From: Axinella damicornis
Lineage: Eukaryota > Porifera > Demospongiae > Axinellida > Axinellidae
DNA length: 64,000 nt
Assembly (NCBI GenBank): GCA_963931865.1
Contig: OZ007506.1
Location: forward strand, 14,663,969 to 14,727,968
Reading direction: 5' to 3'
Shown in pieces: positions 31,301-37,300 of the stretch; within the stretch, counting starts at the first letter, position 1; every line of letters starts with the position of its first letter. Made by a program: the position numbers and the translations under genes. A model generated the notes under the pieces. The model saw only the letters and a program-made list of their open reading frames with translations. It had not been told where the DNA came from and did no database searches.

Positions 31301-34300
31301 CATGCATGTCAAAAACGATAGAAATGACCCTCCCAGTGCCAACCAAGGCTTTTCTATCAGACATGGCCATGCTGCTTGCACCCTTCGGGCGCACCCACCC
31401 ACTCCCCTTGTTCTGCCTTTTCTGCTCACACAGAACCTAATCCCAAGGACATTGTTAGATGCGAAGCTGAAAGTTTCACGATGCCATTAGGCACTGTGGT
31501 CCCTAAAGGGATAATTATTAACTTAACAACCATACAATTCACCAACTGATACACAGTAAGTATTCAAAGTGTAAAGTGCAAAGGTTAACCTGGCAGACAA
31601 TGTCCATGATCCAGATTGGACAATAGCTGTTGAGCTGCCGTGTCTCGTGGTTGCCACCGGCATCTCCACACAGGAACCTCATCATCGTGGTCCCACAGTC
31701 CGCAGACTCCGCCAGTATCACAGGAGTGTGTCGAGGGACAGAGAAGTAGTTAGTGTTCTGGAAGGGAGGACACATAATAGTAGGCTATTCATTACAATAT
31801 GCAATTACTCGTCCATAAATGCTATCATGGAGTCATGTGCTCTCCTCCACATAGAAAGACATCATCAGTGTTTGGATCAGCTACATCAGGACCGTGTAGG
31901 AGAGGTAAGACATCTTGCCATGTTATTACTGCACTTTGATCCAGTGATGAGCCATCATATTCACAGACATTCCAGATCAATTTTTTTTACGTAGTAGTCA
32001 CATACCCTATTATTCATTGACATTCCAAGTAATGAAAGTCACTGGGTACACAAACAGTGTAGGTACGTAACAAGTGTACATTCACTAAACTTTGAAACCC
32101 AAGCTCAGATGTAGCCTAGCTCGTACCCAGTCCCACGCCCAGCTTTTCGTCGCTGCTTAGTACGGTAAAGCGGGGAGGGCCTGGTACATTTCCTCACGTG
32201 AGGATGACGTAATTAAAAACCGCAAAATTTTCAGAACGAAGACGCTACGTTTTGCGTGTTATTCAGCCATCTACATGTTCAACACTCGGTGAGTATGACA
32301 GTCGCCCCCCGCTAGCTAGATATGTGTGGTGTGTTACCTGGTACCTTCGCTCTTCTTGCTGTTCTGAGAGCCACTACGCCCACGTTAAACTTCCTGTCTT
32401 TCTACCCCTTTCTACCCTTGACGTCACTCACGTGAGGAAATGTACCAGGCCCTCCCCGCTTTACCGTACTAAGCAGCGACGAAAAGCTGGGCGTGGGACT
32501 GGGTACGAGGCTAGCTCAGATGCCCTTCCAGGATAAGTGGAGTAGCATGTATATACACTGTCCATACTATCGCATACATGCACTGCACTATGAAGGTTCT
32601 CGAACAATATAGATGTAGTCTTCATGTTCATAGTGGACGATTTTCACTCCTCAGCCAAATATATGATCCATGCAAAATTATGCATACACAAGTAGACAGC
32701 GCCCCCCATTCAGTGACCATACTTCCGGACCTCTTACGTAGCAGTGGAATTCAAATGGAGATGTATATTTGTCTACTCACCACTCCGCCTCCCCCTTCCC
32801 ACACTACCCACTCACCACTCCACCTCCCTCCTCTCTCACTACCCACTCACCACTCCACCTCCCCCCTCTCTCTCACTACCCACTCACCACTCCACCTCCC
32901 CCCTCCCTCACTACCCACCCACTAACCACTCCACCTCCCCCCCTCTCTCACTACCCACTCACCACTCCACCTCCCCCCTCTCTCACTACCCACTCACCAC
33001 TCCACCTCCCCCCTCCCTCACTACCCACCCACTAACCACTCCACCTTCCCCCCTCTCTCACTACCCACTCACCACTCCACCTCCCCCCTCTCTCTCACTA
33101 CCCACTCACCACTCCACCTCCCCCCTCCCTCACTACCCAGTACCCACTCACCACTCCACCTCCCTCCTCCCTCACTACCCACTCACCACTCCACCTCCCC
33201 CCTCCTCCTGCTTGCAGTACTTCTCCTTGACCTTCTGAGCAGCCTCCTTCATCTCCAGAGAAGTCAGTGCCTCTACCACACTCCCCCAGCTAACATCTTT
33301 ACCCAAACTCAACCACAACTGCACACAAAGGGGGAGAAGACACATTCTTATGACCAGTTTGGCATTTCAGAGGGGGAGGCACACAAAGGGGGAGAAGATT
33401 ATGCAGTTCGGTGGAGCTGGTTAAATAAAATCATGTGCTCAAAGAACTAGTGAGTTGTGGTACGGAGCCTGCAGCAAAACTGTAGCCTAAGGCAGTACTT
33501 AGGCTTAGCGGTAGATTGATATATTATGTGATAGATTTGGTGATCCATTGCTTGGGTGACCAGCTTATACATACATGCACACGTACGTCACGGTCCAATG
33601 GGTTTGATTCCCTGTCTGGGAATCCTCACTTCTTAGCTCATTCTTTATTCCTTTTTTTCTTGTACCTCAGTTGTTATGGTACGATTCTTTATAGTTGATG
33701 CCAAGATTCAGAAACCTTTTTGTCACTGGTCCGGAATTCCGCTACAAATGCGAACACGGAAGACCTAAACGTGAATGCAGAAGGCCTAAACAAACTCCGT
33801 AAGATCCATAAGCGAAGCTGCACCATTTTTGGGGAACTTGAGTGCGTACAAAGCCAGCGCTCTTCAGAAGAAGCATTCCGCGTCTTAGGAAGAAACCTGA
33901 TGATTCTTGGCTCAGGTTTTCGGAAGAAGCCTTCCGATTTGCGGTGAAGTCATGCCGCAAACACGAATCGGAAAGGTGTTCCGAATCGGAAAGGTGTTCC
34001 GAATCACGGCATCAAGTTTAAAGACACATACCGTAGTCGCGCGTTATTAGGCGCATGCGCCTATAACTCCACAGGAAGGAGATATGCGCCTATAAGCGAG
34101 ATGCGCCTAATAACGAATATTTTCATAATGACATTCCTCGAATAGGAAGTGCACTTCAATTAGAATTATAGCTTTTTCCACTCCGTAGGATCGAAAATAG
34201 CAGAGTTTCTGGAAGAAAACTGCAGCGCTTAACAGCGAGTACCTGGGACGAGAGTTGAACATGCGCCTAACAGCGAATATGCGCCTATAAGTGAGATGCG

Positions 34301-37300
34301 CCTAATAACGCGCGACTACGGTACCATATAAACTGCAGATAGTCTACAGGAATACTCACTAGGGTGAATTAATATTCCATTCGCCATCAAAAGTGGTAGA
34401 TGAAACGGAATTAGGATACAAACAACATTTATGCTTCTCCTTCAGACTACAACCACCTCCAGGGACAGTGTACCCACCTTGAACAGCTCCTCCCTGCACT
34501 TGTCTTTGTCCTCCCCAGCACTCTCCCTGATCTTCTCCAGATTGCTGTCTGCCACGCCCAGCGCTGACCCCAACTTCTCCCACTCCACTGAATCACCACA
34601 CACACTCACCAAGTCCTCGATGACCGGAGGTGAAGCTGGATGGAGGGAAGGAGAAGTGTTAGTCTGAGGGACATTATCACAATGTTAGCTTACTCCCCGG
34701 ACATGGACCTAATGAACATGTAGCTATGAATGTGCCAGCACCGACAGTGAAATGTGGTGGATTGCATAATCATCACACAAAACTGTGAGGAAGGTAGCGT
34801 ACGATAGCGGTTTGCATGGGATTGCTCACTTTGAAGACTGAGATTTCACGTTAAGATGCACACGTGTCTATACTCACTCACTCACTCTTCCCTGAGGTTT
34901 TCTTCTCCCGGTCGGAGGGAGGGTCGCCAGTGATTCTCACATTAAGAGCTCTAGCAGCTCCATTCTCAGTCCAAAACATGCACACGTGTCTGTACTCACT
35001 CTTCTCTGAGGTCTTCTTCTCCTGGTCGGAGGGAGGGTGGGTACTGGGCCAGTGCTCAAATAATGCCTTCAGCATCAGTGCACCAAGGTTCACTGCAGAC
35101 AAGAGAGGGGGTACAGCACATGGTAACCTATGATTTGTGCTACATGACATGTGCTATGAACATACTGATCCGAGGGGATGGTCGGATGATCAACAAAACA
35201 CTCATTTCCACAGAGACAAAGCATACTAACAAAGTGACCAGTGCTTCTGCAGCCACATTTACAATTTTACATGCACCACTGAAACCACAGAATCTCCCCA
35301 GACACATTGGCATGCTATAACAAACGCCAGCCAATACTGCCATGTGAAATCGACTAACCAACAGGCAGATTTACAGTCACTAAATGTCTAATTCAGTCGA
35401 GTAACGAGAGGTATTTCTGACCATGCAATCCCCTTGAACATGCTGCAGTGCCATCCCGGAGCACTTATACTAATGAGCATTGGAATGTTGATTACAGCAA
35501 GCACAAATGAATTGTGAGGTAATCACATCTCCTTTGGAATCTCCCCACAAGATTACTGTAGAGTACAGTGTCTCGACCCCCTCACTATTGTTAGCAGTGG
35601 CTGGAAATGTAACATGCACAGTTGTTCCACATTCCTTAAAAAGGGGGCGGGGACAGTAGGGCACAGTATGCATGAATGAACAAAGGAGACTGCTTCCAGG
35701 AACTCTTCACATTACTAAATTCATTGCAGCAGTACTAGCCCATAAGCATCCACTTGTGAGGTGGTGTCAGGTTACAGCTGATGATTCCCTCCTACAAGGA
35801 CAATGATTAGCAGAACAGTTCCCCTCTTCCCTATAAACTGCTCACCCTCCATCTCCATACTGTGGTCTTCCTCACATATCTTATCACTACACAACAACAG
35901 CTACTGTTCATATATCCCACTTGTATCTAAATTGTATACAAGCAGAGGGTGGTTATGAGCCATAATTCCCTCCCTCCGGGTACTTGTAGGGAATTTATGG
36001 CTCATAATCCCCTCCCCCGGGTGATAGCTACGAACCAATGAAGTTCAAGAAACAGTGCATGCAGTGTTGTCCATTGCTACACGTAACAGTATAATACGTG
36101 TTGAGGCACTAGGTTCCTGCAGTTCAGCAACGAGCTCGTCAACATCATATTGTGAAGCACTGGCATGTAACTGGAATACCAGAGACCGCTGGTGGTTCGC
36201 AAAGTGAAGCGCGTCATCACAGGTAAGTTGATCGCACTTGTAGTGACCCAACCGGGGGTGGGGTTCAATGTTAACCCCTTCTGCGCTTGACGAACAGTAA
36301 ATTGCGCAGAAGCCTGGCTTTCTACAGCTAGCTATGTAAGTAGCTACATACATACCTTAGCTGTGTATCCAAGGGAGTGCTGTGGACAAATCAGGTACGT
36401 TGCTACACAGCCTCGAGGGATATATAACAGTAGTCTGGGATTGATGGCAATGTACACAAACCTCGTCCTCAGGCTGTCGCCCTCGGACTCGGTTGGTTTA
36501 CTGCCATAAATCCCTGACAACTGTACTTTAACTATAAACATCTTCCTTCCAACTTCCCCTCCACCCTCCCTCCCCCCTCCCCTACTCCCTCCCCCCTCCC
36601 TTCCTCCCTCCCCCCTCCCCCCTCCCTCCTTCCCTCCCTCCCTCCCCCCTCAACCATCTCTCCTCCTTCCCTCCTCCTCCCCCCTCTCCCCACACCCCTC
36701 CCCCAACAATTCTGAATCCACATTCCTCAAAAAGAGGGTGGGGAGAGCAGGGCACAGTATACATGAATGAATACAGGACACTGCTATTCACATTACTAAA
36801 TTCATTGCACTTCCCATGATACAACCATACTGCAGCAGTACTAGCCCATAACTGTCCACTTGTGAGGTGGTGTCAGGTTACAGCTGATGTTTCCCTCCTA
36901 CAAGGACAATGATTAGCAGAACAGTTCCCCTCTTCCCTAGCAGTCGCTCAACCGCCATCTGCATACTGCGGTCTTCCTCATTGCTACACAACAACTGTTC
37001 ATAACATCTTCCTTCCAACTTCCCGTCCACCAGGCCTTCTCATGCTAGTGTTTGTCGCTTGTGGTACTAATGCGGGGACATGGCCATCCCAGTTCCAGCC
37101 AATAACCTTTCTACCTCAGAGCCCAGACACAGCCATGCTGTTTGCACCCTTCGGGTGCACCCACCAACCTCCCCCTGTCCCGCCCTTTCTGCTCGTGCAG
37201 AACCTACATGTAAGTCCCAAGGACATTGCCGGATGTGACATCATGAAGCTGAAAGTCTCACGTTGCAGATAAGCAACGTTAGGTATTAAAGGGTTATTAA

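Follow-up and report, generated by a model that had tools for sequence, protein, structure and literature searches.

DNA repair and receptor recycling both involve the deubiquitinases USP1, USP12 and USP46. These enzymes are bound and activated by WDR48, or UAF1, as stated in PMC7695691. The SUMO-like end of WDR48 is thought to recruit substrates, and changes at the human positions K214, W256 and R272 stop the binding of USP12/46, as given in PMC11624278. WDR48 is very constant across the animals compared. Death domains bind other Death domains, and Death-domain filaments are known. The Death domains of FADD, RIPK1, RAIDD, PIDD and ankyrin sit in receptors, kinases, adaptors and ankyrins, not in a deubiquitinase cofactor. 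UAF1 complexes in mouse macrophages are described as stabilising NLRP3 and p65, a precedent for UAF1-USP action in inflammasome control (PMC7695691). Sponge genomes hold Death-NACHT-LRR receptors (NLRD), with 25 reported in D. avara (PMC12909245). Here, we describe a WDR48 gene with Death-domain exons in the sponge Axinella damicornis. It lies largely within a stretch of 64,000 nucleotides, C2:14663969-14727968 of the 226-Mb genome, hereafter the window; positions inside it are window positions, while other copies of the gene are given in C2 coordinates.

The gene is encoded on the minus strand; it begins above the window and extends down to position 28160, with AG/GT at every internal border and matching phases at all WDR48 junctions. 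The preliminary description had followed 17 exons in one frame to the WDR48 stop. These 17 were borne out, and with exons 1-2, which lie just above the window in locus L043, the 19 joined exons encode 792 residues followed by a single, terminal stop. The Death-domain insert is flanked by the conserved segment that ends in ALFEHWPSTHP on one side and by YFSVPRHTPV on the other. It had been described as one Death domain from two phase-matched exons at 33187-34635, which is exactly the interval from the low end of exon 15 to the high end of exon 14. The acceptors of these exons read CCAG/CTTCAC (exon 14) and GCAG/TTGTGG (exon 15), the donors AAG/GTGGGT and GTG/GTGAGT, and their phases fit the end of exon 13 and the start of exon 16. 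When joined, exons 14 and 15 matched Pfam Death (PF00531) with E 3.8e-7 and 30.6 bits at a cut-off of 22.6. Exon 14 alone gave E 0.089 and exon 15 alone no match at E <= 1; the Death domain is visible only in the joined exons because neither exon alone matches significantly. Borders, phases and the joined score thus agree with the description of one domain in two exons. The exons of the gene are as follows.

Exons 1 and 2: L043 3099-2863 and 620-548, above the window
Exon 3: 63801..63894, minus strand, WD40 propeller
Exon 4: 62790..62908, minus strand, WD40 propeller
Exon 5: 62612..62700, minus strand, WD40 propeller
Exon 6: 60899..61000, minus strand, WD40 propeller
Exon 7: 60460..60637, minus strand, WD40 propeller
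Exon 8: 59900..60021, minus strand, WD40 propeller
Exon 9: 42864..42999, minus strand, acidic linker behind the propeller, matched by the Halichondria panicea protein
Exon 10: 41554..41651, minus strand, GGSSIKEYRIVANKQQVLTRDSRGEVEVWDVLH
Exon 11: 38724..38831, minus strand, ACKDKSLGQVDLDEEMEKRKERLYVPNWFSVEVKTG
Exon 12: 37647..37740, minus strand, MLTIKLEESDCFSAW
Exon 13: 35000..35092, minus strand, conserved NLGALMLKALFEHWPSTHP segment and start of the linker, end phase 1
Exon 14: 34478..34635, minus strand, first half of the Death domain (SPPVIEDL...EELFK), phase 1 to 0
Exon 15: 33187..33318, minus strand, second half of the Death domain (LWLSLGKDVSWGSVV...KEKYCKQ) and short Gly-rich tail, phase 0 to 0
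Exon 16: 31590..31757, minus strand, YFSVPRHTPV..., opens the C-terminal DUF3337/SUMO-like part, start phase 0
Exon 17: 30155..30237, minus strand, aligned to human WDR48
Exon 18: 28703..28850, minus strand, DRLSAMDVLTIGKV...
Exon 19: 28160..28306, minus strand, last coding exon, with the stop, LDLRTVKHTIWKSGGDMKLLYRE

The identification of the gene as WDR48 also held. Its propeller is a WDR48-orthologous WD40 propeller, and the propeller half shares 55% identity with human WDR48 across 495 positions. The C-terminal half matched solved WDR48 chains with E 8.5e-73 and DUF3337 (PF11816), the Pfam family of the WDR48 C-terminus, with 105.9 bits at a cut-off of 35. At the positions of human K214, W256 and R272, this protein and those of H. 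panicea and Dysidea have R, W and R. The exchange of K for R at the first position is conservative, and from these residues contact with USPs is predicted. We infer that exons 14 and 15 are both spliced into the main WDR48 transcript. A minisatellite at 32760-33190 reaches the end of exon 15, and many of its units contain a donor-like GTGAGT on the minus strand; because the exon end lies inside it, that end could vary between individuals. The insert also had a weak match to Pfam PEP-utilisers_N, which at 17.8 bits did not reach the cut-off of 24.4 and was discarded.

When residues 470-700 were used as query, two proteins were returned at E <= 0.001. One, a WDR48-like protein of the nematode Trichuris, is without the insert. 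The other is the NCBI entry "WD repeat-containing protein 48-like [Halichondria panicea]" (P0001) with 804 residues, matched at 100% coverage, 44% identity and E 1.2e-58. It has the same architecture, and its insert occupies the same site. Outside the insert the two proteins are 66.9% identical in the propeller, 61.1% in the ancillary part and 60.1% at the C-terminus; between the inserts 32 positions are identical. Both inserts were compared with each other and with 24 loci of this genome (L001-L008, and L044-L059 as the 16 top-ranking places of a genome search). The H. panicea insert scored 65.5 bits against the insert described here, and the next best sequence from this genome 52.0. In the reverse direction the score was 64.6 bits, and the runner-up, WDR48 copies aside, reached 38.1 among the 24 loci and 49.6 in a whole-genome search, the latter from the C8 family, which lies outside the 24-locus comparison. 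In the genome search that yielded L044-L059, where the intron divides the insert of this gene, exon 14 ranked below six C14 places and two more. Because the inserts are reciprocal best matches among the sequences compared, we read the Death inserts of the two species as one old insertion, judging from sequence. Independent insertion in the two species is disfavoured by the same reciprocal match, which covers the 24 loci without the C8 family.

Fold searches with the whole model returned WDR48 and propeller structures only, and the insert was therefore modelled alone. The H. panicea insert folded in this way is predicted to adopt a six-helix Death fold. The closest solved folds to this modelled insert include the Death domains of FADD, RIPK1, TNFR1 and TRADD, with an identity to solved Death folds of 10-23% among the best 26 matches listed. 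Low-confidence stretches flank the insert site in the structure model; the prediction is a Death fold held by flexible tethers clear of a WDR48 body that is otherwise normal. A chance Death match was rejected, as the Pfam match requires both exons and the predicted fold of the relative is a Death domain. Sequence family, reading frame, the insert of the second species and the predicted fold of the relative thus all support the presence of a Death domain in the linker of WDR48.

The distribution of the insert was judged from linker length. Of 990 proteins matched by a profile search at E <= 1e-60, the best 120, together with the first search, provided 121 database proteins for comparison with the protein described here (n = 122). 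The median linker is 27 residues, against 112 in this protein, where it holds the Death domain, and 130 in H. panicea; the human WDR48 structures 5k1a, 8a9j and 6jlq represent the form without such a linker. The third-longest linker, of 82 residues in a partial camel model, is by eye not Death-like, and mouse WDR48 has no long linker, falling below the 25 longest. The other named sponges have linkers of 14 (Dysidea avara, isoform X2) and 31 residues (Corticium candelabrum). By this measure the Death insert is absent from the other database WDR48s compared. A search with the H. panicea protein gave 10 proteins at E <= 1; apart from that of H. panicea itself, these are nine crustacean proteins that lack the insert, judging by name, coverage (36-46%) and length, and 7/9 were already among the 121. 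Among the sequences compared, the insert is seen in two genomes. The preliminary description knew of no WDR48 with this insert. The H. panicea entry does contain it, so that this part fell, while in the titles and abstracts of the literature searched no Death domain in WDR48 is described. WDR48 and the Death domain are both known; their combination is new and is present unnamed in the H. panicea record, whose name and listed Pfam entries do not show a Death domain.

Searches with propeller exons 7-8 and with exon 12 found no second complete WDR48 in this genome. Exons 7-8 occur at only two places (E <= 1e-6), this gene and copy C, and exon 12 at this gene only. Copy C (C2:14828303-14859588, L020-L023) retains exons 1-11 at 90-100% identity. 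Its exons 12-14 were not found within 70 kb, exon 15 has an interruption and runs into a stop, 3 bases are missing from exon 16 and 26 from exon 19, which has stops. As exon 11 to exon 16 keeps the frame by phase, a shortened WDR48 is conceivable from this locus. For copy B (14.598-14.607 Mb), exons 1-12 were not found within 80 kb; its exon 16 is longer by 2 bases and the end of its exon 18 lacks a donor. Further fragments with pieces of exons 13, 14 or 16-19 lie at 14.15, 14.23, 14.32, 14.42, 14.43 and 14.51 Mb. The region C2:14.15-14.83 Mb thus contains a same-strand array of broken partial WDR48 copies, several with exon 14, which suggests that a WDR48-Death gene has been duplicated locally and has decayed more than once.

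Of the seven places read, this gene and copies B, D, E and F keep exon 14 in frame with both splice signals; G and a further place in B have it broken, and an eighth place, at 14.154 Mb, has stops. The pN/pS ratio of exon 14 in this gene was 0.27, 0.38 and 0.48 against D, E and F (8-14 changes each), and among the partial copies it ranged from 0.79 to 1.49. Exon 15 is 98.5% identical to that of copy B. These selection figures are small and mixed, and lean to some constraint on this gene. The whole genome holds at least 150 Death-domain matches, clustered on several contigs; open frames round four of the best genomic matches, read by eye, revealed no clear donor gene.

Taken together, we consider it just about probable that this is a WDR48/UAF1 whose built-in linker Death domain docks the deubiquitinase complex on receptors or adaptors that carry Death domains and serve immune or cell-death signalling. 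The insert, between the ancillary region and the SUMO-like end, would act as an added recruiting arm; as it sits on flexible tethers between the ancillary region and the recruiting end, the arm is predicted to be added with the body undisturbed. The propeller would still bind USPs, and a Death-Death contact could bring the deubiquitinase to ubiquitinated partners, for example sponge Death-NACHT-LRR receptors, where it may trim ubiquitin and thereby prolong or reset partner signalling. These receptors are a plausible partner class, with Death domains in the same kind of animal; they differ in being NACHT and LRR receptors, described with no mention of WD40 or DUF3337 (PMC12909245). The tie to apoptotic or immune adaptors proposed in the preliminary description would follow the same lines. 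If true, a built-in Death domain would connect deubiquitination directly and physically with death-fold signalling in a Death-rich genome, and the natural fusion would point to which Death-domain assemblies need a deubiquitinase nearby. A bolder version, possible but doubtful, is that in some sponges this cofactor of DNA repair and endosomes has become an innate-immune adaptor, its Death domain plugging USP1/12/46 into Death-domain receptor assemblies without separate adaptors; ubiquitin removal would then be physically part of death-fold signalling.

Several points weigh against a docking Death domain. The H. panicea insert scored 20.0 bits with Pfam Death, under the cut-off of 22.6, and the two inserts are only 34.8% identical over 89 columns. 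The insert sequence gave no match below E 0.05 to solved structures; the best were caspase-7 chains from E 0.054, set aside as chance, then the Death domains of PIDD (0.092) and FADD (0.17). The UAF1/USP1-NLRP3 contact is described as running through NACHT and LRR, not through the PYD death-fold domain (PMC7695691). The module is not a symmetric exon-shuffling cassette because its phase is 1-0. Against copy B, the pN/pS of exon 14 was 0.82, so that little constraint is visible there, and each of these ratios, being based on 8-14 changes per comparison, is a weak test; identity of exon 14 to copy B was 92.4%, against a non-exon average of 90.7%. In a wider scan, donors at 34985 or 34940 with acceptors at 31757 or 31784 (four pairs) skip exons 14 and 15 in frame, and a Death-less WDR48 form is therefore possible. 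Finally, the comparison covers three named sponges and the best 120 of 990 matches.

That the insert is baggage in the WDR48 linker we regard as rather unlikely. Linker length is variable among WDR48s, the model has low confidence beside the site, the insert is conserved far less than the rest of the protein, exon 14 has diverged from copy B about as much as the introns, and the locus is an unstable array of copies. Nevertheless, the insert has been kept in a second species, with its identical positions and predicted Death fold, and exon 14 showed the lower pN/pS ratios against three of four partial copies measured.

The Death domain could instead oligomerise WDR48 and cluster USP complexes, without docking on a foreign receptor. 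The solved Death domains closest in fold are seen in assemblies, but fold similarity does not reveal the binding mode, and we consider this improbable.

Less probable still is alternative splicing by which one gene makes mostly WDR48 without the Death domain and a smaller share with it. A diverged second copy of the exon 13 end (PPSDREKKTSGK) with donor-like sites lies just downstream, at 34878-34950, copy B likewise has a second partial exon 13, and the two alternative donors below exon 13 allow the in-frame product without exons 14-15. At the modelled sites, however, stops arise at codon 517 when both exons are skipped and at codon 521 when only exon 14 is, the frame surviving only if exon 15 alone is left out, and the sole H. 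panicea protein found contains the insert.

The notion that exons 14-15 are a separate gene or decayed fragment nested in a WDR48 intron and joined by annotation artefact, which the many genomic Death matches and the repeats and broken copies of the region might invite, was rejected as very hard to reconcile with phase-matched sites on both sides, the same-site insert in the NCBI protein of H. panicea and the failure of the searches above to find another complete WDR48.

The window also contains repeats and element remains. Within the 17-kb intron 8, integrase fragments at 53468-54419 (plus strand), with Integrase_p58_C and SH3_Tf2-1 above and rve below cut-off, are likely remains of an LTR-type element. 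Long repeats were seen by eye at 43500-49600 in the same intron, where many overlapping matches also show them, and at 61400-62600 in intron 5. Downstream of the gene, a 258-residue open frame at 24585-25358 lies in a CAC/GGN-type repeat with a Gly-rich minus-strand translation, and a 352-residue open frame at 8033-9088 (plus strand) has a weak DDE transposase match (E 0.006, below cut-off).

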